From the IMG/VR virus record IMGVR_UViG_3300044951_001144, positions 1 through 32,489 of that record: a stretch of 32,489 nucleotides of DNA. One strand, written 5' to 3'. Below, one piece after another: positions 2,076-32,019 of the stretch. Both the position numbers and the translations under genes were made by a program. Under the pieces are notes generated by a model. That model was given only the letters and a program-made list of their open reading frames with translations. It ran no database searches and was not told the origin of the DNA. Position 1 is the stretch's first letter. Each line of letters starts with the position of its first letter. The DNA is from a virus.

Positions 2076-2573
2076 ATGCCTTACAAAGACAAAGAAAAAG
2101 CAAAAGCACGAGCAAGGCAAAGACGTATTGAAAATCATGAAAAAACATTAGAGTGGTATAGAAATTACACAGCAAAAAACCGAGAGAAGGTATTGGCATG
2201 GAAAACTAAATATAGAAACGAAAACAGAGATGCTATAAATGAAAAAATGAGAATTTTTAGAAAAGAAAACCCAAAAGTTGCAAGAGAAAAAGACAGAATC
2301 AGAAGAATTGTATCAAAGGAATCAATTAGGATTGCAAATAAAAAGTACGGAGAAAAAAACAGAGATAGGTTAAGTGCTAAAGCAGTTGAATGGGCTAGGA
2401 AAAATAAAAATGCTGTAGCAGAAAGAACAAAAAAATACAAGATGCTAAATCCTGAGAAGGTATTGGCTACTTGTAAAAAAAGTGTTTCAAATAGGTATAG
2501 ATCAAAGTTTATATCTCAGTTACAGATACTTAAAAATGCGTCAAGTGTTTTAAAGCAGGGAATGGAGGGTTAG
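2076..2573 (+). CDS. Lys/Arg/Asn-rich 14-residue-repeat protein, copy 1
   Basis: The ribosome site GGAGGG lies inside the end of the previous gene. The 165-residue protein is very basic and built from about eight imperfect units of roughly 14 residues: aromatic, two residues, [KE]-N-[RP]-[ED], then a helical stretch (for example YTAKNREKVLAWKTK, YGEKNRDRLSAKAVE). Such arrays occur before HNH nuclease domains in some phage proteins, but no HNH or other catalytic motif is present. The non-repeat C-terminus (ISQLQILKNASSVLKQGMEG) is shared with the next gene. Codon use is strongly A-rich (AAA, AGA, AAT), unlike its neighbours. A nucleic-acid-binding role is plausible from charge alone. Confidence 0.75.
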   Translation: MPYKDKEKAKARARQRRIENHEKTLEWYRNYTAKNREKVLAWKTKYRNENRDAINEKMRIFRKENPKVAREKDRIRRIVSKESIRIANKKYGEKNRDRLSAKAVEWARKNKNAVAERTKKYKMLNPEKVLATCKKSVSNRYRSKFISQLQILKNASSVLKQGMEG

Positions 2574-2576
2574 GAT

Positions 2577-3068
2577 ATGCCAAGAGACAAAGACAAATAC
2601 GAAGCATGGAAAAAAAACTATTACAAAAATAATAGAGAAAAGCTTCTTGCTAAAAGCAAAAAGTGGAGAGAGGAGAATTCAGAATATAATAGAAAAAGAG
2701 TCAAGCAATGGCAAGACACACACAAAGATGCTGTAGCTGGTTATGTGAAAAAGCAATATCTTAAAAATAAAGATAAGGCTCTCGCTTATCAGAAAATGTA
2801 TAGAGAAAAAAACAAAGAAGAACTAATAGAAAAACGCAAATACTATTATCTAAAAAACAAAAGTGCAATACTGGAAAAAAACAAAAAATATAACTCTTTA
2901 AGAAGGGATTCGCAAAAAATATACATGAAGGATTGGTATCAAAAAAACAAAGAATATATGGACGCAAATGATAGACGAAGAAAGAGATCATATTCATTGG
3001 TGGCTTTTCAAACCCAGTTACAAGCACTCACAAACGCATCGGAACAGTTGAAGAAAGGAACAGTATGA
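2577..3068 (+). CDS. Lys/Arg/Asn-rich 14-residue-repeat protein, copy 2
   Basis: This is a tandem paralogue of the preceding gene, 163 residues, with the same MP.DK.K opening, the same unit (YYKNNREKLLAKSKK, YREKNKEELIEKRK, YYLKNKSAILEKNKK) and the same C-terminal signature (FQTQLQALTNASEQLKKG). The junctions before each copy read ATGGAGGGTTA followed by a start codon within a few bases, so the pair probably arose by duplication with that end as boundary. The repeats have diverged much more than the tail. No catalytic motif is visible. Its stop overlaps the next start (ATGA at 3065). Confidence 0.75.
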   Translation: MPRDKDKYEAWKKNYYKNNREKLLAKSKKWREENSEYNRKRVKQWQDTHKDAVAGYVKKQYLKNKDKALAYQKMYREKNKEELIEKRKYYYLKNKSAILEKNKKYNSLRRDSQKIYMKDWYQKNKEYMDANDRRRKRSYSLVAFQTQLQALTNASEQLKKGTV

Positions 3069-4281: not shown

Positions 4282-4707
4282 ATGAGCGAAGAAACAACAT
4301 CACAACCGACAGAGCCACTGGCAACACGGCCAACAGCTCCGCAGATTATCAACTGGTCAAACCTCAGATGCTTATATGCTGAGGATATTAAGGACGTAAA
4401 GATGCGCTTCAAGATTGCAGGAATTAGGGACACACCTAAAGGCGCACGGTTATTCTGTCAATCGGGCGAAACAGAGGCGTTCGATGTTGCGTTTGATCGA
4501 AAAGACAAACAAGGGAAAACGCTGTATATCCAACTGCCGAAAACAAATGCGTTCGGCAAACGTGCTGGCATCCTGCGCCAATACGTTATGGTGTGCGGAA
4601 ATGAACCGAGCGCAGAACATATCGGCAAAGAGGTGGTGCTGTATACCAAAGAGTCGGCTAAGTCGGTCACAGGTAAGGCAATCCGAATTGCGGACGTGAA
4701 TGAGTAA
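4282..4707 (+). CDS. Unknown protein between exonuclease and SSB; possible recombination partner
   Basis: ATG 4282 follows AAGGAG. The 141-residue protein has a disordered Thr/Pro-rich first 22 residues, then an apparently beta-rich domain (MRFKIAGIRDTPKGARLF, VAFDRKDKQGKTLYIQLPK, KEVVLYTKESAKSVTGKAIR). It has no similarity that I can recognise to RecT, Red-beta, Erf, Sak or Rad52. The gene order exonuclease, this protein, SSB suggests it handles single-stranded DNA or partners the nuclease. The closing half (GKEVVLY..., TGKAIRIADV) could be an OB-like fold. That is inference from layout and strand pattern. Confidence 0.7.
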   Translation: MSEETTSQPTEPLATRPTAPQIINWSNLRCLYAEDIKDVKMRFKIAGIRDTPKGARLFCQSGETEAFDVAFDRKDKQGKTLYIQLPKTNAFGKRAGILRQYVMVCGNEPSAEHIGKEVVLYTKESAKSVTGKAIRIADVNE

Positions 4708-4725
4708 GAATGAAAGGAAAAGAAA

Positions 4726-5097
4726 ATGACAAAGCAAACAAGAGACTATTTAGACTTTATTAGGGATATTGCTCAAAATGAAACACACGATGAGGCAGGT
4801 GTAAATCCATCTGGACATTCGGAAAAAAACCTTGACTCAATAATTACAACAGCTCGAATTATCGTGAATCGTATCTACGCAGAAGAACCAGAAACCGTCT
4901 GCGCTCAATTGCGTCAAGTCGGTGATGTGGCAATCAGTCAAATCGGTCTCACAAAGCGCGAATGGTTCGCTGGTATGGCGTTGCAAGGCTTGCTTTCAAA
5001 CCATACGCCAGACTCACAAAACGACAAAGAGTATTTTGCAAGAGAGTCGTTTTTAATCGCAGACGCAATGATTAAAGCAGGAAAGGAAACTGAATAA
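4726..5097 (+). CDS. Conserved-type hypothetical phage protein, 123 aa
   Basis: The C-terminal half has the pattern LTKREWFAGMALQGLLS ... ESFLIADAMIKAG, which I know from many small phage and prophage proteins of unknown function encoded near recombination and replication genes. The N-terminal half (DFIRDIAQNETHDEAG...) is not recognised. It starts at ATG 4726 after GAAAGGAAAAG and ends directly against the SSB-like gene (TAA then ATG). Confidence 0.7.
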   Translation: MTKQTRDYLDFIRDIAQNETHDEAGVNPSGHSEKNLDSIITTARIIVNRIYAEEPETVCAQLRQVGDVAISQIGLTKREWFAGMALQGLLSNHTPDSQNDKEYFARESFLIADAMIKAGKETE

Positions 5098-5463
5098 ATG
5101 AAGCAACCGAAAACAAGTGAGATCGTGGGCGAGGTGGCCAACATTCAAAAGAAGGAAGGGAAGAAAAACCCTTTTTACGTGGTTGACATTCTGGCATCAA
5201 TTGACGGCTACGATGGAAAGGCCGATGAAGTGGTCTACCAGATTACCGCGTTCGGCAAAATGTCCGATAAGGTGCAGGCATTGGCGGTCGGTGATTATGT
5301 CACCGTAGTGGCTTATGTCGGGTCGCGTGAATGGCAGGGAAAGTGGTATCCATCATTGACGCTCGCAAGCATCGACGTACATACAAACGTCGCGCCAGTT
5401 GAAGCGACAGGCGTACAAGTAACCGAACAAGCGGATGGTCAAGACACAAGTCTGCCATTTTAG
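5098..5463 (+). CDS. ssb: Single-stranded DNA-binding protein-like, 121 aa
   Basis: An OB-fold pattern is visible: EIVGEVANIQKKEGKKNPFY, VVYQITAFGKMSDKVQAL, GDYVTVVAYVGSREWQGKWY, then LTLASIDVH. A flexible tail ends DGQDTSLPF. That terminus resembles the acidic DDDIPF-type tip with which bacterial SSBs recruit partner proteins. The length (121 residues) is shorter than E. coli SSB (178) but usual for phage versions. It follows the exonuclease cassette, so it probably coats single-stranded DNA during recombination-dependent replication. A DUF3127-type OB protein is the close alternative. Confidence 0.75.
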   Translation: MKQPKTSEIVGEVANIQKKEGKKNPFYVVDILASIDGYDGKADEVVYQITAFGKMSDKVQALAVGDYVTVVAYVGSREWQGKWYPSLTLASIDVHTNVAPVEATGVQVTEQADGQDTSLPF

Positions 5464-5480
5464 CAACCAATCAATTGTTT

Positions 5481-5503
5481 GTCCGTTCAATTAAAAAACG
5501 GAC
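5481..5503 (+). repeat. 7-bp hairpin after ssb
   Basis: GTCCGTT (5481-5487) and AACGGAC (5497-5503) pair around a 9-nt A-rich loop. No T-run follows, so termination is doubtful. It lies in the 50-nt gap after the SSB-like gene and may stabilise the upstream mRNA end. Confidence 0.55.
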
Positions 5504-5513
5504 GCATTAACTT

Positions 5514-5678
5514 ATGAACGACTTTAAAAACAAACTACGCGCCATTATCGCAACCGCTGGATGTAACCACTGCTCAGCCTTTCAAACGTGCAAAGGGACA
5601 AAACGATGTGGAGCGTTCGTACCGAGCGCGGAACTGTATGAGACGGTCAAACGGATGGCAGAGAAGGAGGGAAAATGA
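5514..5678 (+). CDS. Small four-cysteine (zinc-binding) protein, 54 aa
   Basis: The frame runs from ATG 5514 to TGA 5676-5678 and overlaps the next start (ATGA). The middle holds CNHC, then QTCKGTKRC, giving four closely spaced cysteines that could bind one zinc. The tail is helical and charged (ELYETVKRMAEKEGK). No clear Shine-Dalgarno site is seen, which lowers certainty. The function is unknown. Confidence 0.55.
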   Translation: MNDFKNKLRAIIATAGCNHCSAFQTCKGTKRCGAFVPSAELYETVKRMAEKEGK

Positions 5679-5896
5679 AGGCATTTACGACTGTTAAAAC
5701 AACTCAAGGCGGTTTTTATGTTGGCTCACCGTTTGAATGTGAAAGCATTATTAACCATACAACCAACATGTTTGAAAAACTGGCAAAACATCAAGACATA
5801 AGACAAGCTGTTTACGCAATAATTCTACACGATGGAAGTGGAGCAATATTTCCAGCCGTAAACATTGAGTGCTTAATAACACAGGAGGCTAAATGA
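5675..5896 (+). CDS. Small unknown protein, 73 aa
   Basis: The ribosome site GAAGGAGGG lies in the end of the previous gene, 4-5 nt before ATG 5675. The protein looks like a mixed alpha/beta fold (KTTQGGFYVGSPFE, EKLAKHQDIRQAVYAIILHD). No family is recognised. The stop overlaps the RuvC-like start by ATGA spacing. Confidence 0.65.
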   Translation: MKAFTTVKTTQGGFYVGSPFECESIINHTTNMFEKLAKHQDIRQAVYAIILHDGSGAIFPAVNIECLITQEAK

Positions 5897-9046: not shown

Positions 9047-9095
9047 ACGGACGCAACACGGGCGATTGTATGGCGGTTACACGCGAAAGGACAAA

Positions 9096-9719
9096 ATGGA
9101 CACTTATAAAACGGATTTACTTGACCTTCGGAACATGGACTGCATGGATTTAATGGCGCAATATCCAGACAAGCATTTCAAGCTGGCGATTGTCGATCCT
9201 CCATATCGTGATACAAACCAGCCAACAAAAGATATGCGAGCAAATGGAAGCATGAAGTCTCTTGAAGGTAGACCATCAAAAGAATACTGGAATGAGTTAA
9301 AGCGTGTTTCTGAAAATCAGATTATTTGGGGCGCAAATAACTTCCAGCTTCCTCAATGGAAAGGTTTTGTTGTTTGGCGTAAAATTCCTATTCCAGAAAA
9401 CTTTACAATGTCAATGTGTGAGGTTGCTAGCCTATCAGAAGGTCTTGGAACTGTTGCTAAGGTTGTCGAAATAACACCGATGAACCAAGTTAGATGTCAT
9501 CCAACACAAAAACCAGTCGCCCTATACCGCTGGCTTCTTGCAAACTATGCAAAGGAAGGCGATAACATTCTGGACACGCACGGTGGCTCATTCAGTAGTG
9601 CAATCGCCTGTCACTACGCAGGCTATCATTTAACTGCGTCAGAATTAGATGCGGATTACTTCCAAGCGAGCGTTGAACGTGTCAAACGTGAAACCGCACA
9701 AATGACGTTAGGGGTATAA
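9096..9719 (+). CDS. DNA adenine N6-methyltransferase, beta class
   Basis: The start is ATG 9096, 5 nt after GAAAGG; the upstream TTG at 9066 lacks a site. The catalytic motif VDPPY (34-37) comes before the SAM-binding motif (ILDTHGGSFSSAIA, 158-171), the beta-class order, and CHPTQKPVALY (134-144) is the usual bridging motif. Motif I is unusual in reading DTHGGSFSS rather than DxFxGSGTT. At 207 residues the enzyme is short, with a target recognition region of about 95 residues. No restriction enzyme is encoded nearby, so it probably protects phage DNA from host restriction. Confidence 0.85.
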   Translation: MDTYKTDLLDLRNMDCMDLMAQYPDKHFKLAIVDPPYRDTNQPTKDMRANGSMKSLEGRPSKEYWNELKRVSENQIIWGANNFQLPQWKGFVVWRKIPIPENFTMSMCEVASLSEGLGTVAKVVEITPMNQVRCHPTQKPVALYRWLLANYAKEGDNILDTHGGSFSSAIACHYAGYHLTASELDADYFQASVERVKRETAQMTLGV

Positions 9720-13679: not shown

Positions 13680-13751
13680 GTGGGATACCCCTTTTGACGA
13701 AGTCTTTGAAACAAAACTAGTCCCCGATTTATGAAACGAAAGGAAATCAAA

Positions 13752-15011
13752 ATGAAGGAAAAGAAGAGCAAAGTTGACTTATCTGCAGACATTCCAATCC
13801 ATTGCAGTTATTCACAACTGACTGCAATACAAGAGCTTAATCCAAACCCACGTAATTACAACAAGCACCCAGACGAGCAGATCGCCTTGCTTGCTAAAAA
13901 CATACGTGCTTTGGGTTGGCGTCACCCGATCATCGTCAGCAAGTTGTCTGGAAAGATTGTTGCAGGCCACGCTCGTTTGGAGGCCGCTAAACTATTATCA
14001 CTTCAAACCGTCCCAGTTGACTTCCAGTCATTCAACTCGCAAGACGAAGAGAACGCTTATTTGATAGCCGACAACAAGATTGCCGAACTTGCCGAGCTTG
14101 ACGAATCGCAACTCAAGGAACTATTGACTGAGCTGACAGCAAGTGAGATTGATATGGACTTAACTGGATTCACTGAGCAGGCGTTAAGCGAGATACTCAA
14201 GCAAGAGGACGGAGAAGCGGACGCAGAACCACAGATTGATAATGCAGATGAGCTAAACAAGGTCTGGCAGGTTAAAGTCGGAGACGTTTGGACGATAGGA
14301 AATCACAGATTGATGTGTGGTGATAGCACAAATAATAATGATGTTGATAAGTTAATGATGGGAGAAAAGGCAAGCATGGTTTTCACAGACCCACCATACA
14401 ATGTTGATTATGGTGCAAACGAAAATCATCCATCGCATAAAATTAGAACAATTGTAAATGATAAAATGTCAGACTCTGACTGGAATAAGTTTGTTGTTGG
14501 ATATATGAAGTCTATTTTTAGAATGACGGATGGTAATATTTATATATCTATGTCAGACAAGGAGCTTGGACATATGCAATCAACCTTTAGAGATTGTGGT
14601 GGAAAGTGGGCAAGTTTCATCATTTGGGTTAAAGACAGTTTGGTTTTATCGGCAAAAGATTATCACTCTAGGCATGAAACGATATTATATGGATGGAAAG
14701 AAGGAGCAAAAGAACGTCTAAGAGTTGAGGACAGAAAACAAGATGATGTGTGGGAGATTGATAGGCCAAAGAAATCCGAAGACCATCCAACAATGAAACC
14801 AGTAGCTCTTGTTGAAAGGGCGATAAATAATAGCTCAAAGCAAGGATGGATTATTGGCGATCTGTTTCTCGGTTCTGGAACAACAATGGTCGCTTGCGAA
14901 AACCTCCACCGCAAGTGCTACGGAATGGAAATAACACCGAACTATTGCGCTGTTATCCTGCAACGCATGAAAGACGCATTCCCATCACTCGAAATTAAGC
15001 GTGTAGAATAA
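13752..15011 (+). CDS. ParB-like domain fused to DNA methyltransferase
   Basis: ATG 13752 is preferred over ATG 13731 because GAAAGGA lies between them. Residues 20-115 are a ParB/sulfiredoxin-like domain: ELNPNPRNYNKHPDEQI, then GKIVAGHARLEAAKLL (GxxRxxA motif) and a helical tail. After an acidic linker (about 150-165), residues 170-419 are a methyltransferase with DPPYNVDY (213-220), HPTMKPVALVERAI and DLFLGSGTTMVA, the beta-class order, likely adenine N6 or cytosine N4. Such fusions often lie beside terminase genes in phages, as here, and may modify DNA before packaging. DNA for the methyltransferase half is more A/T-rich than the ParB half. Confidence 0.85.
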   Translation: MKEKKSKVDLSADIPIHCSYSQLTAIQELNPNPRNYNKHPDEQIALLAKNIRALGWRHPIIVSKLSGKIVAGHARLEAAKLLSLQTVPVDFQSFNSQDEENAYLIADNKIAELAELDESQLKELLTELTASEIDMDLTGFTEQALSEILKQEDGEADAEPQIDNADELNKVWQVKVGDVWTIGNHRLMCGDSTNNNDVDKLMMGEKASMVFTDPPYNVDYGANENHPSHKIRTIVNDKMSDSDWNKFVVGYMKSIFRMTDGNIYISMSDKELGHMQSTFRDCGGKWASFIIWVKDSLVLSAKDYHSRHETILYGWKEGAKERLRVEDRKQDDVWEIDRPKKSEDHPTMKPVALVERAINNSSKQGWIIGDLFLGSGTTMVACENLHRKCYGMEITPNYCAVILQRMKDAFPSLEIKRVE

Positions 15012-18284: not shown

Positions 18285-19780
18285 TGTTTGACTTTTTGAA
18301 GCGCAAAAATAGGAAGTCGCCATTTAACTTTGGCGTGAGGTCATTTTCGGCGGCTGAAATGTCGCGTATTTTGCGCCCTTGGACATTCGACAAAGGATTT
18401 GATAACCAAGAGATTGAAAGTCAACAGCGCACAATCGTAGCACGTTCGCGTGAGATGTATAAGAACAGCGCACACATGAAGCGGTTTGTTTCGCTCTTTG
18501 AAACTAACGTGGTAGGTGACGGCTTCAAACTGAAAAGCACACCGTACGATGGCGTGGCAGGTCAAAAGGATTACAAGCTAGACACCTCTGCGGCTCGTTA
18601 TTTCGAGGATCACTTTTGGAAGTGGGCAAACAATCCGAAATGGTGTGACGCTACTGGGCGCAAGACATTAGTCGAGATTGACAGAATGTGCGTCAAGAAC
18701 TGGGCGCGTGATGGCGAGTATTTCATTATCATTTATCGCGGTCAACCCAACCCTTATGGGATTAGCTTGCGCGTTATTCGTCCAGACGCTTGTGATAGTC
18801 GCTACCGTGCAACAGCAAGCAACGGAAATCCTGTCCGTGGCGGTGTAGAGTTGGACGCTAACACGATGGCTCCAGTTGCGTATTACGTTCAAACGACTAA
18901 GGAATATTCAAGCGTTTCAACGGCTCTCGGAAATATGCGCCGTATTCCTGCATTTGACCCAGAAAAAGACCAAGCCGAAAGCATGATTCACGGTTACACG
19001 CAAGAAGAGGAAGACCAGACAAGAGGCATACCGCTATCCCATGCAATCCTAAAGAAGCTCAAAATGTTGGATGAGCTGGACATTGCAGAGCTAGTCGCCG
19101 CAAAGGATGAGGCGTGTACTGTTCACAGTTATGAGTCAACGAATAATAACCCAGAGACTTTCATTGACTTGACCACAGCTGAAGGTTCGGCAATGGCGAA
19201 CACCTATATGCAGGAAAAAGAGGCAGGAATGTCGGAGATTCTGCCTGCTGGATGGACGCGCAAAACGAATACGCCACAGCACCCGAATATGCAGTTAGTT
19301 CCGTTCAAGGCTACGATGCTGAAAGACATTGCAAGCGGTGTCAATGTTGAACACGCGAATTTCTCCAACGATTGGGCTGGCGTTTCCTATTCGTCAGTCC
19401 GTCAAGGCACGTTATCAGAGCGTGATATGTGGATGACCATGCAAGACCGCTATATGGGTCAATGCAAAACTCCTGTTTATCTCGCTTGGATGCGCTCATT
19501 CTTGGCTAATGAGGTGAGCGGTGGTTTCATGATTATGAAGTTTTGGAAGTTTAAGGAGCATTACTTCCGTGGTCGCCGTTGGGGATGGGTTGACCCGATG
19601 CGTGATATGCGAGCCAACGAAGTCGCAAGGCTTCACGGATGGAAGAGCGACACGCAGATTGCCGAGGACTTTGGTGGCGACTTTGAGGACACGGTTGACC
19701 AGATTAAACGTGATGACGAAATCAAAAAGGGAACATCTTTGGAGGTAAAAGCAGATGAAAAACAAACAGAAGCAAAATGA
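18284..19780 (+). CDS. Portal protein (lambda gpB-like)
   Basis: The 498-residue product matches the lambda-type portal family in order: an N-terminal arm (FDFLKRKNRKSPFNFG), IVARSREMYKNSAHMKRFVS with a following ETNVVGDGFKL, WARDGEYFIIIYRG, LRVIRPDACDSRY, an I.HGY box with LSHAILKKLKMLDELDIAEL, and the C-terminal VEHANFSNDWAGVSYSSVRQ. The portal is the dodecameric ring through which DNA enters and leaves. Length is close to lambda gpB (533). The start shares one base with the preceding stop. Confidence 0.9.
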   Translation: MFDFLKRKNRKSPFNFGVRSFSAAEMSRILRPWTFDKGFDNQEIESQQRTIVARSREMYKNSAHMKRFVSLFETNVVGDGFKLKSTPYDGVAGQKDYKLDTSAARYFEDHFWKWANNPKWCDATGRKTLVEIDRMCVKNWARDGEYFIIIYRGQPNPYGISLRVIRPDACDSRYRATASNGNPVRGGVELDANTMAPVAYYVQTTKEYSSVSTALGNMRRIPAFDPEKDQAESMIHGYTQEEEDQTRGIPLSHAILKKLKMLDELDIAELVAAKDEACTVHSYESTNNNPETFIDLTTAEGSAMANTYMQEKEAGMSEILPAGWTRKTNTPQHPNMQLVPFKATMLKDIASGVNVEHANFSNDWAGVSYSSVRQGTLSERDMWMTMQDRYMGQCKTPVYLAWMRSFLANEVSGGFMIMKFWKFKEHYFRGRRWGWVDPMRDMRANEVARLHGWKSDTQIAEDFGGDFEDTVDQIKRDDEIKKGTSLEVKADEKQTEAK

Positions 19781-21593
19781 AGAGCGCAATAAGGACGGCC
19801 TGACCTTCCGTGATTGCGTCTTCGAGATTCGAGAGATTAACGAGGAAGGCAAAGAGCCTGTCAAAGGGCTGTATATGTCTGCGTCCAGTGAAGAGCCTGT
19901 ATTGACATACGCACGGTATAATGGCGAATATCAGAGAGTCTATGAGATTCTTGACCATTCACCTTCGAGCGTGAATATGTCGCGTATGAAAGACGGCTTG
20001 ATTATTCAGGATACACACTGGGGCGACCAAATAGGACTTATCCGCAAAGTGTCTCTAGATGGAAAGAAGCTTGGCGGTATTGCAGAATTTTGTTGCGGTG
20101 AACGGGCGCAAGAGATAGCGCAGGATGCAATGAAGGGGCTACGCAGGAATACAAGTGTTGGATACATTTGCAATCCTGAAAGCTATAAACTCGACGGAGA
20201 AAAAGACGGTATACCCGTGGTACGGTGTACTGATTGGACTCCTTATGAGGTTTCCTTTGTGAACGTCCCAGCGGACACAAGTGTCGGTGTAGGCCGTGAA
20301 TTGAACATTAAACAAAGCCCTTCAAACGATGAAGGCAAACGAAAGGAAGAGGTTATTATGAACCCTAAACAGATGGCAGAACTTGCAAAGCGTGCAAACG
20401 AAAACGGAGTCAGTGACAAGCTGGCTGGAATTATGGAAACGGCAGAGACTTTTGAAGCCGCCGAGCGTGCATTGAATGATGCGATTATCGTATCGCAACG
20501 CGCACAGATTCAGAGTCTCAAGGTGGTCGCACCTGCAAAGGTTGACCCTGTGGCACAGCGGACGGTTGCACCTGTGATTGACGTTCCTAATAAGGAAATG
20601 CGCCAGTATAGCGTTATGAAGGCTCTCCGCGCAATCGGTGGTGACAAGTCGGTCGACGCTGGTTTCGAACGTGAAGTGTCTGAAGAGCTGGCTAAACAGC
20701 GTGGCAAATCGGCAAGCGGTATCATTGTTCCGTTTAGCGCACTTGGTAAACGTGCATTCACGGTTGCTGGTACGTCTTCGGCTTCGGTCTCGACTGACCT
20801 AATGGCGAATGACTTCATCGACTTGCTCCGTACTCAATCAGTCCTCGGTGCGGCTGGTGTTCGCTTCATGACTGGTTTGGTCGGCAATGTCGCAATTCCA
20901 AAGATGACCGCTGGCGCAACTGGTTACTGGGTTGCTGAAGCTGGTGATATCACTGGTTCACAGCCTACGATGGGTCAAGTGACTGGCACTCCTCACACTT
21001 GCGGTGTGTTGGTTGACATTAGCCGTAAGCTTCTGCAACAGTCCACGCCGTCCGCTGAAATGCTCGTCCGTGATGAAATCATGGAGCGCATTATCCGCAC
21101 AATCCAGATCGCTACGTTCGCAGGAACTGGCGCAGATGGACAGCCGAGTGCAATCACCAACGCGACAGGTATTAATGACGTTAGTGTAACGACAGGGACG
21201 CCAACCTATGCTGAACTGCTCGGCTTTATCGGTGCAATCATGGCTGATAACGCAATGGCAGACAATCAAAAGTGGATTGGTACTGGTGAAGTGTGGGCTA
21301 AGTTGGCGGCAACCGCAACGAACGGAGCAGGGTCTCCTCTCGCTCTGGATGCCGCGACTAACAAGCTGATTGGCCGTGACTTCCTTACTACCGAGGACGT
21401 GCCTGCCAATTCGCTGTGGTTTGGTAACTGGAATACCGTAACCGTTGGCGTGTGGGGTAATGGTCTTGACATTACGGCAGATACCGCAACACTGTCAAGC
21501 TCTGGCGGTCTGCGTTTGGTCGGATTGCAGGATGTTGATATCATGGTTCGCAACGGTCAAGCGTTGGCCTATGATCTGGCCGTCACAAGCTAG
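19755..21593 (+). CDS. Fused prohead protease and HK97-fold major capsid protein
   Basis: The 612-residue protein combines two functions. Residues 20-185 look like the HK97-type serine protease: QDTHWGDQIGLIRKV (H88), RRNTSVGYI (S134) and WTPYEVSFVNVPADTSVG. A linker with scaffold-like helices (202-290) follows, then the capsid (about 310-612: NDFIDLLRTQSVLGAAGVRF, YWVAEAGDITGSQPTMG, DVDIMVRNGQALAYDLAVTS). GGAGGT precedes ATG 19755, which overlaps the portal gene by 26 nt. An in-frame ATG at 20358 has its own ribosome site and may produce separate capsid precursor. Confidence 0.9.
   Translation: MKNKQKQNEERNKDGLTFRDCVFEIREINEEGKEPVKGLYMSASSEEPVLTYARYNGEYQRVYEILDHSPSSVNMSRMKDGLIIQDTHWGDQIGLIRKVSLDGKKLGGIAEFCCGERAQEIAQDAMKGLRRNTSVGYICNPESYKLDGEKDGIPVVRCTDWTPYEVSFVNVPADTSVGVGRELNIKQSPSNDEGKRKEEVIMNPKQMAELAKRANENGVSDKLAGIMETAETFEAAERALNDAIIVSQRAQIQSLKVVAPAKVDPVAQRTVAPVIDVPNKEMRQYSVMKALRAIGGDKSVDAGFEREVSEELAKQRGKSASGIIVPFSALGKRAFTVAGTSSASVSTDLMANDFIDLLRTQSVLGAAGVRFMTGLVGNVAIPKMTAGATGYWVAEAGDITGSQPTMGQVTGTPHTCGVLVDISRKLLQQSTPSAEMLVRDEIMERIIRTIQIATFAGTGADGQPSAITNATGINDVSVTTGTPTYAELLGFIGAIMADNAMADNQKWIGTGEVWAKLAATATNGAGSPLALDAATNKLIGRDFLTTEDVPANSLWFGNWNTVTVGVWGNGLDITADTATLSSSGGLRLVGLQDVDIMVRNGQALAYDLAVTS
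20341..20360 (+). promoter_or_regulatory. Internal ribosome site and start inside protease-capsid fusion
   Basis: GAAAGGAAGAGG (20341-20352) lies 5 nt before ATG 20358, codon 202 of the fusion and in frame. Translation here would give a 411-residue scaffold-plus-capsid protein (MNPKQMAELAKRA...) without the protease, allowing more capsid than protease. Confidence 0.6.
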
Positions 21594-21666: not shown

Positions 21667-22128
21667 ATGAATAAGTTTAACGGTTTTTTAGTTTCGATTA
21701 TGTTATCAGCTGGCGTATATGCGGCAGATGCTAATCAAATGAAGTATGTTCAGATGTTGCCTCCGAATGTCTCAACAAACTTGAGCGTTACAGGTGACAC
21801 TATTGATATCGCAAACTATAAAGGTAATGCGGCGTTGGTAGTTGAAACTGCGACATCAAGCGCAATGACCAACACGATCACGGTTACGCTTCAGCACAGC
21901 ACGGCAAGCAACTTTGCTAACCCTACAACGGTTACAAATTTGGCTGGAACAGCTGGCGTATTGACCGAGACCTGTACGACCAACACGGCGGACACAGTCA
22001 ACATTCAAACGTACCCGATTGATACGGCACGTTTGCACAAGTATATCCGCGTTATTTATACGACCACAATGGCAGACGCATACATTCCTGTGTCTGCTTT
22101 GTTTGTCGCACCGATGAAAGCAGAGTAA
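21667..22128 (+). CDS. Decoration-like protein with apparent signal peptide, 153 aa
   Basis: GAAAGGA (21654-21660) supports ATG 21667; an upstream TTG extension lacks a site. The first 19 residues (MNKFNGFLVSIMLSAGVYA, then AD) look like a Sec signal peptide with an AxA-type cleavage site, which is odd for a gene right after the capsid. The rest is Thr/Ala/Asn-rich and beta-structured (DTIDIANYKGNAALVVETAT, TITVTLQHSTASNFANPTTV). Position suggests a head decoration protein; the leader suggests export. I cannot decide between them. Confidence 0.6.
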   Translation: MNKFNGFLVSIMLSAGVYAADANQMKYVQMLPPNVSTNLSVTGDTIDIANYKGNAALVVETATSSAMTNTITVTLQHSTASNFANPTTVTNLAGTAGVLTETCTTNTADTVNIQTYPIDTARLHKYIRVIYTTTMADAYIPVSALFVAPMKAE

Positions 22129-28336: not shown

Positions 28337-28978
28337 ATGAAAACGATTACTCTACTATTTGCGATATGTTTAGCCGTTTCGTTGCACGCGCAAACCAATA
28401 TCGTATGGTCGGACGGTACTCGCTTCTTTACAAAGGGCGGTGGAGGTGGTGTTACAAACGCACCTTATGGTTGGGATGACATTCTGGCAAGCGCAAACAC
28501 GGCCTATACGTCTGGACAAACGGACATTGAGCAGGACGACGCTTTGGGCGGTAAGTCGTTCAAGACCTCTGCTACCACGAACAAGGCGAACGACCATTTA
28601 ACGTTCACTCTGCAAGCGCCACATTCACGGAAAAAGGGGACAGACATTTATCCGCACTTGCACTTTTGGCAGACAAACGCAGACCAAACGAATATGTGGT
28701 ATTGCTATTACAATATAACAGGTGTAGGACATACGAACGAAACGGAGATATTCAGCGGTGTGGCCTCTAATCGCATTACCTATGCAGGCGGTACTATGCA
28801 CCAACTGGCATCATTTCAACCGATAACTGGACTTAGCAACGGAGTTTCAAGCATCATCCGAATTAAGCTACACCGTCAAGGAAACATAGGGACAGGCGCG
28901 GTCACGGTCACTGACTTAGACTGCCATGTACTAAAGGACGGCTTTGGAAGTGACAGCGAAACAGGCAAGAGTTATTAA
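28337..28978 (+). CDS. Fibre-like protein with Sec signal peptide, 213 aa
   Basis: It starts MKTITLLFAICLAVSLHA|QTN, a textbook signal peptide (basic n-region, hydrophobic core, small residue at -1). The mature part has a glycine run (FTKGGGGGVTN) and a domain with PHLHFWQTNADQTNMWYCYY that resembles C-terminal parts of phage fibre or virion-associated proteins. AAGGAG precedes ATG 28337. A signal peptide on a virion protein is unusual. Confidence 0.65.
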   Translation: MKTITLLFAICLAVSLHAQTNIVWSDGTRFFTKGGGGGVTNAPYGWDDILASANTAYTSGQTDIEQDDALGGKSFKTSATTNKANDHLTFTLQAPHSRKKGTDIYPHLHFWQTNADQTNMWYCYYNITGVGHTNETEIFSGVASNRITYAGGTMHQLASFQPITGLSNGVSSIIRIKLHRQGNIGTGAVTVTDLDCHVLKDGFGSDSETGKSY

Positions 28979-28991
28979 AGGAGTACAAATT

Positions 28992-29162
28992 ATGTCAACT
29001 ATTACAATCAATTTGACGTTGAAGCAAGCAGAAAATCTATGTATAATGATGTCTAAATCTGACCCATTCGGAATTTGGACAGGCGACATTTTGCAACAGG
29101 TTAACGAAACGGCCAAAAAGCATATTCACGAAATGATGGCAGAAAAGGAGAAAGCACAATGA
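28992..29162 (+). CDS. Small unknown helical protein, 56 aa
   Basis: AAAGGAGTACAA supports ATG 28992; the longer frame from 28944 overlaps the previous gene without a site. The product (MSTITINLTLKQAENLCIMM ... ETAKKHIHEMMAEKEKAQ) is helical. It lies between two fibre genes and could be a fibre chaperone or an unrelated small protein. Its stop overlaps the next start. Confidence 0.55.
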   Translation: MSTITINLTLKQAENLCIMMSKSDPFGIWTGDILQQVNETAKKHIHEMMAEKEKAQ

Positions 29163-30910
29163 GAAGTTTACTGATTGGTTTATTGATGGGCGTTTCGACA
29201 ATCGCAACCGCTGACCCTCGCGACTGGGCAAAGCGTATTCCGTGCGAGCTACAGACGGCAGGAGTGGCGAGCTTACCAACGCTCGAAGTATTGCAAGGGT
29301 CTAGTCCGCTGATCGCCTGTGACCAATATCGGAGCGGTAAGGCGTTGACCGTGACTAATGACGTTCAAGCGGTCATGCGGTTTTCAAGTTCGCTGACCAA
29401 TACTCTGTGGGTATCGGTGACAAATCAGAGTTACTATTCAAACAGCTATCTGATTCAATTGCCGTCACTCGGGACAAACGCCACATCATGGGTTTATACA
29501 ATCCTATACTACAAGGACAGCGCAATCTATTGGACAGGAACAGGACGGCTTGATATTAAGCGGACAGAGGTGACAGGCAATTCGCTGGTATGGCAACAGG
29601 TCGCAGGGTGTGTCTCTACTGCGGATGTAGCAACGGCTATTAGTACCCATAACACTAATTTAACATCACACGCAACTTTACTATCAAGCTATGTCACGCA
29701 AGCAATGACAAACGGATGGACGGTTTCAGCGCACCTCGATTGGCTGGTACGCTCTGAAACAAACGGATGGGTAGTATCACCACATCAAGCATGGTTGACC
29801 GCAGAGGCTGACCCAAACCTTGCGCCAGCGTTGTCGGCACTTAGTAACCAAGTAAATACGGCAAGCGTTAAGGCAACATCATCGGCAGGTAGTACGCTCA
29901 ATTCGTTAAGCGGTGCGGAGTGTTTACGTTGGGGCGTTGGCAGTTCTTGCGCTATCAGTACGACAGACGGTTTGCAGGTTGGCGGTACATTGAGCGCAAA
30001 TTTATTTAGTGGTAATGGCGCATCATTGACAAACCTTCCACCCAGCGCGATCACAGGCTTGACGAGCGCACTTGCTACACCGCTCGCCTACACACCAATC
30101 AGCACCACCGCTGGAGGTACGACCTTCACGGCCAACGTCACAAGCGCACGCAGTATCTACGACTTTACTGCAAGCGCAGTGAACGTCTATACGAATAACC
30201 TGTCCGCTCTATCGTTAAACGGCACGACTAATTACGCTTGGACTGCACGGATTAACTACACAGATACTAACGCACTAAGCACGACATGGGATAGCCGTAT
30301 CGAATGGGTCGGACTTGCAAGCACGACTCCAGACTTGACGGTCACAGGGAGATATGAGTTTGCGTTCAGCACATCGGACGGTGTTACGATTCAAGGACGG
30401 CAGGTTTATCCGAGCGTATATCAATATTCCAGTTTAACTGTTGGTGGGAAAATAATGAGCGGAGTAACGGGGACATGGGCGTTTAATTATGAGAGCGCAA
30501 ATCAATCTGGAGCTGTTACAGAATCAGCAACGTGCTATCCGTTTAGCGTTTCATCTGGGCAAAAATACTTTTATGCAAAAGTCTACTCTATGTGGGCTGG
30601 GAAAACTGGAACAGCTACAAACCTTTTAGCTGTAATGCAAGCAGACCACTATCCGTATTTAGCGGATGGATCTCTACGTGGCACAGTATATACAAATATT
30701 ATTGCCTATCAAGCAACCACATTGACCGAAAACAAATATATGCTAACTGGTTTTTCTGGAAACTCATTAAGCGACACGGTTTTGGCTATCGGAATCAGAA
30801 CTGGGACAGCGGATAATCTGTCTGGTTTTCGAGTATATAATTCAGTGTCAAAAATTAGAACAGCGAACGAACTTGAAATAAAAGCCTATAACGCAGGATG
30901 GAGGCCATAA
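29159..30910 (+). CDS. Large tail fibre protein with signal peptide, 583 aa
   Basis: The first 18 residues (MRSLLIGLLMGVSTIATA|DP) form a signal peptide with an ATA cleavage site. The body is Ser/Thr/Asn-rich and beta-structured, with two related segments (TNGWTVSAHLDWLV and TNGWVVSPHQAWLT, about residues 180-225) and the fibre-type motif ANLFSGNGASLTNLPPSAIT (about 280-300). The C-terminal part (ITYSADI-like strands, YNAGWRP end) probably forms the receptor-binding tip. It is the second longest structural protein here and the most likely host-range determinant. Confidence 0.7.
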   Translation: MRSLLIGLLMGVSTIATADPRDWAKRIPCELQTAGVASLPTLEVLQGSSPLIACDQYRSGKALTVTNDVQAVMRFSSSLTNTLWVSVTNQSYYSNSYLIQLPSLGTNATSWVYTILYYKDSAIYWTGTGRLDIKRTEVTGNSLVWQQVAGCVSTADVATAISTHNTNLTSHATLLSSYVTQAMTNGWTVSAHLDWLVRSETNGWVVSPHQAWLTAEADPNLAPALSALSNQVNTASVKATSSAGSTLNSLSGAECLRWGVGSSCAISTTDGLQVGGTLSANLFSGNGASLTNLPPSAITGLTSALATPLAYTPISTTAGGTTFTANVTSARSIYDFTASAVNVYTNNLSALSLNGTTNYAWTARINYTDTNALSTTWDSRIEWVGLASTTPDLTVTGRYEFAFSTSDGVTIQGRQVYPSVYQYSSLTVGGKIMSGVTGTWAFNYESANQSGAVTESATCYPFSVSSGQKYFYAKVYSMWAGKTGTATNLLAVMQADHYPYLADGSLRGTVYTNIIAYQATTLTENKYMLTGFSGNSLSDTVLAIGIRTGTADNLSGFRVYNSVSKIRTANELEIKAYNAGWRP

Positions 30911-31430: not shown

Positions 31431-31741
31431 CACCTTGCGAACAGAGGGACAACGTGATGGACATAAAAGCGTCCATTGGCAAAATCAAACAGACGCTCTA
31501 TGAAGGGAACGGCAAACCGTCCATTCTGTCACAGCTCGAAGTCGGCAATGAGAAGTTTAACGAGATTGACAAAAAGCTGGACGGACTAGACAAGAAGTTT
31601 GACACATTAGCGTCCTACGGTCGGGCGGTTGCGCTTTCGGTCTTGGGATTTATGGGCGTGATATTCTGGCAGATGGTACAGAAACATAATGCCGATACGT
31701 ATTACAAGACTGACGGCAAAATTACGGAGGTACGAAAATGA
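31427..31741 (+). CDS. Coiled-coil single-pass membrane protein (holin/XhlA-like)
   Basis: Residues 10-65 form a helical coiled coil (DIKASIGKIKQTLYEGN ..., FNEIDKKLDGLDKKFDTLAS), followed by one membrane helix (VALSVLGFMGVIFWQMVQ, about 70-87) and a short tail. This layout resembles XhlA-type haemolysin/holin accessory proteins. Position between fibre genes and a lipoprotein, in a lysis-like cluster, supports a role at the inner membrane during lysis. Confidence 0.6.
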   Translation: MTPCEQRDNVMDIKASIGKIKQTLYEGNGKPSILSQLEVGNEKFNEIDKKLDGLDKKFDTLASYGRAVALSVLGFMGVIFWQMVQKHNADTYYKTDGKITEVRK

Positions 31742-32019
31742 AAAGCGCATTTATAACAAGTTTATCGGTTGTATTGTTGATCGGTTGCAATGCGTCACCT
31801 AATCAGCTTCACGGTCAGTTTTCGGTTTTTACATTTGACAATCGCACGTTTTATGAGTCTCCTGCAAACGCCACCAATCGCGCCACAATAGGGCAAGGCG
31901 GTCATGGAAGCAATAGCCGTGTGTATTGCGACACGTTACAAGGCATGGTGCTTTATAAGTCACCTATGACCGCTTCTAGCAATTCAACCCCTGTATCGGT
32001 TGAGATGCCGATTAAATGA
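31738..32019 (+). CDS. Small lipoprotein, 93 aa
   Basis: The N-terminus MKSAFITSLSVVLLIGCNAS has a basic start, a hydrophobic core and a lipobox (LIGC, C17), so the mature form of 77 residues should be lipid-anchored. The body (FSVFTFDNRTFYESPANATN) is polar and not proline-rich, unlike typical Rz1 spanins. It overlaps the previous gene (ATGA). It could be an outer-membrane spanin-like lysis protein or a superinfection exclusion lipoprotein. Confidence 0.65.
   Translation: MKSAFITSLSVVLLIGCNASPNQLHGQFSVFTFDNRTFYESPANATNRATIGQGGHGSNSRVYCDTLQGMVLYKSPMTASSNSTPVSVEMPIK

Follow-up and report, generated by a model that had tools for sequence, protein, structure and literature searches.

The protease-capsid fusion gene analyzed here very probably works as a nested gene with two in-frame translation starts, producing a 612-aa protease-delta-capsid protein and a 411-aa delta-capsid protein. 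This reading of the sequence comparisons, which we consider the best full explanation of the locus, agrees with the preliminary description of this DNA, in which dual starts had been suggested. It is supported by the recurrence of an in-frame ATG with an upstream Shine-Dalgarno (SD) sequence in the linker between the protease and the capsid part of fused relatives, and by split homologues, in which the capsid gene begins at this same joint; its odds depend on these homologues and on the reading-frame control described below. The window, that is, the entire stretch analyzed, is the 32,489-nt virus record IMGVR_UViG_3300044951_001144 from IMG/VR.

Layout of the fused gene

The 612-aa protein is a fusion of the phrog_617 type, with protease, linker and HK97-fold capsid in a single ORF. 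It consists, in order, of a putative S78-type prohead protease, a linker, a delta or scaffold-like region and an HK97-fold major capsid protein (Table 1). The profile of phrog_617 ('major head protein') spans residues 42-606 (E 1.3e-98), and that of PF05065 matches residues 351-605. The portal gene runs to 19780 and contains the first ATG in its 3' end.

Table 1. Coordinates of the protease-capsid gene, its predicted domains and its two candidate starts in the window
Feature	Position	Strand	Basis
Fused protease-capsid gene	19755..21593	+	ORF, 612 aa, 65.7 kDa
First start, GGAGGT and ATG at 19755	19741..19757	+	Sequence; SD -10.7 kcal/mol
Folded protease domain, about residues 36-181	19860..20297	+	pLDDT, invariant residues
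Linker, residues 183-201, without conserved sequence	20301..20357	+	pLDDT <50 at 183-203; linker sequences
Internal Shine-Dalgarno-like sequence GAAAGGAAGAGG	20341..20352	+	Sequence; -6.7 to -7.0 kcal/mol
Internal in-frame ATG, codon 202 of 612	20358..20360	+	Comparison, statistics, capsid-gene starts in split homologues
Delta/scaffold-like region, residues 202 to about 344	20358..20786	+	Predicted mostly helical (AlphaFold2)
Mature HK97-fold capsid protein, about residues 345 to 612, 27.8 kDa	20787..21590	+	PF05065, Foldseek

AlphaFold2, run on the window protein with 50 sequences, predicted the protease confidently up to about residue 180, with block means of pLDDT of 86-97 over residues 41-180, and the end of the domain coincides with a conserved PAD..VGVGR motif. 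H68, S134, Y137, P163, E165 and R181 are invariant in an alignment of 16 sequences (A1), and the columns of H68 and S134, which we take to be the catalytic residues, are at least 90% conserved in an alignment of 50 (A2). The Peptidase_S78 profile (PF04586) matched 47 of the 50 aligned members; the window protein itself gave no match at E 0.01 or 0.1. The best 50 of 792 Foldseek matches contained no protease chain, all being capsid, encapsulin or engineered-capsid chains; the capsid part matched 8gta_A (E 3.2e-20) as well as HK97 capsid chains. Because the mean pLDDT of the model was 74.8 and its pTM 0.49, the relative placement of the domains was not relied upon.

The linker, which is probably disordered judging from the structural model, contains the candidate internal ribosome-binding site. 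Beyond it, the predicted helices of the delta region (204-216, 220-227, 233-262 and others) are of low confidence until about residue 280. The location of the internal start between the protease and the scaffold-like region, as originally proposed, thus agrees with the AlphaFold2 model on the protease side and is less sharply defined on the other, where the helix that follows (204-216) is called with a pLDDT of only about 50. The downstream limit of delta was derived from alignment to the deposited capsid chain of Dinoroseobacter phage R4C (8gta), which starts at residue 362 of the 629-residue gene product and lacks residues 1-361. This start aligns with approximately residue 345 of the window protein, near which we place the putative cleavage point; in this relative, the shortened chain would be compatible with removal of delta, as in HK97-type maturation.

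An identical gene is carried by another contig (L002; 0 of 1839 differences), and that of a second contig (L003) differs from the window at six positions, none of them at the internal start site. These six differences all lie within 46 nt (20711-20756), perhaps reflecting a recombination tract or an assembly effect. Residues 208-233 (20376-20453) match PF24182 (Gene 1 ring forming protein) with 19.2 bits, compared to the curated cut-off of 22.6 bits, and the tail of a ClpP gene in another contig (L199) contains a stretch that is similar by eye.

Several other features of the window were observed. Three virion-region genes (21667-22128, 28337-28978 and 29159-30910) encode N-termini that by eye resemble signal peptides (MNKFNGFLVSIMLSAGVYAADA..., MKTITLLFAICLAVSLHA... 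and MRSLLIGLLMGVSTIATA..., respectively), which is unusual in structural proteins. A short protein with a lipobox-like LIGC at its N-terminus (31738-32019) is possibly a spanin-like lipoprotein. Repeated KNRE-like units characterize two neighboring lysine-rich proteins (2076-3068), which by eye are apparently paralogous; the second of them shows a weak HNH endonuclease match. The window further encodes a ParB-like domain fused to a DNA methyltransferase (13731-15011) and a second DNA methyltransferase (9066-9719).

The candidate internal start in the window

The ATG at codon 202 and its upstream SD are present at 20341-20360, as the preliminary description had noted, separated by the 5-nt spacer TTATT (20353-20357). 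Translation from this codon would yield a predicted delta-capsid protein of 411 aa and 43.0 kDa, the sequence of which begins, again as had been given, with MNPKQMAEL. The energy of the anti-SD duplex is -7.0 kcal/mol, or -6.7 kcal/mol over a slightly narrower stretch, and the characterization of the site as near-ideal overstated its quality: with the first start counted, codon 202 is the third strongest of 19 in-frame ATGs by energy and the fifth strongest of 43 ATG, GTG and TTG codons, close to the median of -6.85 for 34 positions taken as gene starts in the window, one of which (21664) is no start codon. The SD of the upstream start (-10.7) is stronger. Taken alone, the site in the window is not above chance; the comparative evidence is.

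The 61 nt around 20358 showed no unusual folding relative to shuffled sequences (z 0.41). Between 19500 and 21800, a single sigma-70-like match was found, at 21547, with shuffled sequences averaging 2.2; for a host with sigma-70-type promoters, a separate transcript from the joint is not suggested.

Recurrence of the candidate start among fused relatives

In a first alignment of 20 sequences, every linker, although otherwise unconserved, contained a Met after the PAD..VGVGR motif, mostly behind a purine run. The comparison was then made on 99 fused sequences, including that of the window, in 50 clusters at 70% identity; this set had been enlarged by an IMG/VR scan and alignment, with both scan patterns located outside the linker and with four contigs (L002, L003, L007 and L024) excluded. 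The mere presence of a linker ATG was not counted as evidence: although every one of the 50 clusters has such a codon 5-65 codons from the end of the protease, 83% of 2195 60-codon windows elsewhere contain one as well. The linker test accordingly combined an in-frame ATG with an SD of -4.5 or better, within a 40-codon window after the protease that, like the windows of the PF25209 tests below, was chosen after the sequences had been inspected. Such a site occurs in 35 of the 50 clusters, compared to 8.9 expected from equal windows in the same genes and to a maximum of 21 in 200,000 simulations, so that conservation in relatives, which had been named as a check on the internal start, is supported. 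As a frame control, the other two frames yielded 5 and 0 of the 50 clusters.

Further properties distinguish the linker ATG. The first such ATG has a mean SD of -5.6, versus -2.5 for 660 other in-frame ATGs (p ~1e-13), and the best one a mean of -5.9, versus -4.1 in synonymous recodings (Wilcoxon p ~1e-6), with p < 0.05 reached in only 6 of the 50 clusters when these were considered one by one. The mRNA around it is more open than the rest of the gene (mean percentile 0.87; top quarter in 43 of 50), and the second residue belongs to the set S, T, E, N, D, A, P, K in 46 of 50 cases, compared to 315 of 660 after other Met residues. In a marine-phage subgroup consisting of many near-identical members, for which 80 loci were fetched with a search pattern not spanning the linker Met and 11 without a readable junction were dropped, the ATG is present in all 69 readable junctions and the SD in 68. 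In the nearest relative (L025, 41% identity), AAGGAG precedes the ATG even though the local residues differ. When synonymous constraint was examined among 25 closely grouped sequences, a dip appeared around the linker; it is confounded where residues differ between subgroups, because cross-subgroup comparisons vanish there.

The signal is not uniform, with 15 of the 50 clusters below the -4.5 threshold in the 40-codon linker window. Four of these (L009, L047, L068 and L087), resembling Synechococcus-phage sequences, contain no convincing linker SD; ten others have weaker linker sites (-2.1 to -4.3), and in the remaining one (L076) the linker ATG is located 61 codons on. Phages S-LBS1 and S-CBS1 have a junction ATG without an SD, which is not simply a host habit because their other genes do have SDs. 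SD energy is an imperfect guide, being only -3.8 for HK97 gp5 and -4.3 for Mu T.

Split homologues and fusions with other protease and capsid families

The protease gene of FP_Epona stops 25 codons past the same conserved motif and that of Dulem virus 34 stops 28 codons past it, both within the linker, and the capsid gene starts 13 and 15 nt later, respectively, with SDs of -11.6 and -12.2; the capsid of FP_Epona, the one of the two that was scanned for its family, belongs to PF25209. An Anaerolinea-labelled contig (L199) carries a separate ClpP gene followed, after 9 nt, by a capsid gene that begins at the joint with an SD of -9.3 and belongs to the window's own capsid family. This direct succession of a ClpP-type protease gene and a window-family capsid gene occupies L199:2212-4314. 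Protease modules of different families appear to have been exchanged at the same joint.

Five fusions with a protease of the window's kind have a linker ATG with an SD in the range of -6.0 to -9.3, namely Stenotrophomonas phage S1 and phage B8b, the two scanned for their capsid family (PF25209 in both), and PBb002, Pd_22F and DCP80. Fusions joining proteases and PF25209 capsids were clustered at 80% identity, after 5 of 155 loci had been dropped as split or incomplete. Among S78-PF25209 fusions, ATG and SD occur together in 8 of 14 clusters versus 3.4 expected, which lies inside the simulated range and is suggestive only. Among ClpP-PF25209 fusions, including relatives of Gifsy-2, this is the case in 34 of 37 clusters versus 8.8 expected, with a maximum of 20 in 100,000 simulations and with 1 and 0 clusters in the other frames. 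In two scans, one of the six search patterns covered the linker Met (IEKEETAM, QEHTMPQP), and the hits may lean towards ATG; one such scan supplied all 14 S78-PF25209 clusters and 25 of the 37 for ClpP. The remaining 12, obtained by a scan without a Met-spanning pattern, all have ATG and SD. In Gifsy-2-like clusters, conservation could also act at the protein level, because amino acids preceding the Met are conserved as well. The protease half belongs to two Pfam families (PF04586 and PF00574), and the joint together with its start is the common feature of these fusions.

Two split-looking Gifsy-2-like loci (L231 and L233) were rejected as gene boundaries, as they match Gifsy-2 at 99% in two overlapping frames. 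Five A/T-rich S78-PF25209 fusions (L329, L332, L338, L364 and L377) contain a linker ATG without a good SD, and their hosts are perhaps not SD-reliant.

A proposed mechanism and its alternatives

Under the dual-start explanation, initiation at 19755 would produce the long protein, in which an S78-type protease is followed by a flexible linker, the delta scaffold and the HK97-fold capsid protein, whereas initiation at 20358 would produce delta-capsid alone, as a counterpart of HK97 gp5. The bulk of the procapsid would consist of this short form, with which a minority of long subunits would co-assemble via the common delta-capsid part, bringing the protease into the shell. Once assembly is complete, the protease would cut off delta together with its own tether, and about 268 residues would remain in each mature subunit. 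What we observe is the site, its recurrence among relatives, its position at the domain joint and the homologues split there; translation from 20358, the ratio of the two forms, their co-assembly and the cleavage scheme are inferred. The position of the upstream start inside the end of the portal gene may limit initiation there.

If each capsid subunit carried a protease, the procapsid would be crowded with hundreds of copies of the enzyme; the recurrent second start would explain how fused-gene phages can work. Relief of this one-to-one stoichiometry, which the preliminary description had anticipated, is supported insofar as the internal start recurs; the site energies do not consistently favor it. 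Among 17 sequences with a given upstream start, the internal site is the stronger of the two in 7 and the weaker in 8, including the window, with 2 ties. With the upstream site being the stronger one in those 8 sequences, the SD energies give no reason to expect more of the short than of the long form.

This last result leaves room for the possibility that the short form is not the major one and that, instead of diluting the protease, the internal start mainly provides free delta-capsid as a chaperone or as a subunit for size control. Given that the short form aligns with HK97 gp5 in content, comprising delta and the capsid domain, we regard such a role as unlikely.

It is quite unlikely, too, that only the full-length fusion is made, with self-cleavage in the linker freeing the protease and with the Met and the purine-rich codons being incidental to a K/E-rich spacer. 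The low model confidence of the linker is as expected for a flexible spacer, synonymous recoding of the seven residues preceding the start in the window (KRKEEVI) yields an equally good SD half the time (p = 0.52), and a nested product is annotated in 0 of the 22 fused records examined. However, a spacer would not be expected to show the bias at residue 2 and the openness of the mRNA, nor would it account for the excess of ATG and SD in one frame over the other two or for the capsid gene of split homologues beginning at the same joint.

Alternatively, the site could be a relic of two genes merged by loss of a stop codon, with the old capsid start retained but unused. The split arrangement at the same joint in FP_Epona, Dulem virus 34 and L199 fits this scenario, as does the separation of gp4 and gp5 in HK97, where gp5 starts 2 nt past the gp4 stop. 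An unused site should decay, yet this one is kept in most clusters despite differing linker residues and is kept in ClpP fusions as well, making a relic very improbable. Finally, although 12.6% of the 691 plus-strand ATGs in the window have an equal or better SD and ATG 20868 in the same gene scores better than 20358, there is almost no prospect, in view of the comparative tests and the recurrence in relatives, that the site is by chance one of several in-frame ATGs behind a purine run.

Returning to the dual-start explanation, we lean slightly towards a general rule, namely, that any protease-capsid fusion, whether S78 or ClpP and PF05065 or PF25209, keeps or evolves an internal start at the joint. 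The fusion would then be a delivery device, in which the protease enters on a minority of subunits as an N-terminal extension and releases itself together with delta, the protease half being exchangeable at the joint.

From the recurrent second start, we would expect many sequenced phages to make a product missing from their annotation, and, for structural and assembly work, this start would define the true N-terminus of the capsid precursor. The question of stoichiometry is directly testable in cultured phages, for example, R4C and RcCronus.

Comparison with known systems

Nested in-frame starts in protease genes are already known, being annotated in lambda C/nu3 and Mu I/Z, and so are fused protease-capsid genes, one of which is labelled 'major head and protease protein'. 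In our literature search, we recognized no description of an internal start in a protease-capsid fusion, although an earlier one for Gifsy-2 is possible, and the 22 fused records contained no annotation of a nested start or product.

Among solved structures, the R4C capsid (8gta) is the best match to the window protein, and its gene is the same kind of fusion. The accessible part of the R4C capsid paper treats vBDshSR4C_006 as the MCP (PMC10276861), and in that part of the text no mention of a protease or of cleavage was found (PMC10276861).

Gifsy-2 resembles the window gene in that a single ORF joins a protease, a middle region and a capsid, with an in-frame ATG at codon 221, just after the protease, and an SD of -8.8; unlike the window gene, it combines a ClpP protease (PF00574) with a capsid of family PF25209. 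Effantin et al. are said to have described, in 2010, the capsid gene of this Salmonella phage as 'tripartite'. In herpesviruses, the protease-scaffold and scaffold forms encoded by UL26 and UL26.5 are nested in frame, as in the scheme proposed here; there, however, the short form has a transcript of its own, and the capsid is a separate protein.

In HK97, a head maturation protease likewise precedes delta-capsid, gp5 aligns with the proposed 411-aa product, and the HK97 capsid chains match the window protein both by profile and by model. The difference is that gp4, which we take to belong to the S78 family, and gp5 lie in different frames, as separate genes divided by a stop, and that the SD of gp5 is weak. 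In Mu, according to the annotation of the record, Z starts within I, with a site of -7.4, comparable to that in the window; the capsid protein T, in contrast, is encoded by a separate gene.

In lambda, the protease gene C (4418-5737) contains an in-frame internal start for nu3 (5132-5737), and the annotated nested start has an energy of -6.9 kcal/mol, similar to that of the window site. The lambda protease is annotated as S49, unlike the putative S78 type of the window protein. By its sequence features, the window gene has the hallmark of such nested genes, an internal in-frame start with an SD after the protease, and to this extent the analogy with C/Nu3 drawn in the preliminary description holds. 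It does not extend to the product: in lambda, the nested protein is the scaffold only and the capsid protein gpE has a separate gene, whereas the nested product proposed here would be the delta-capsid protein itself. Thus, the window gene is C/Nu3-like in its proposed working without being a member of that type, because its ORF runs on through the capsid domain to 21593.
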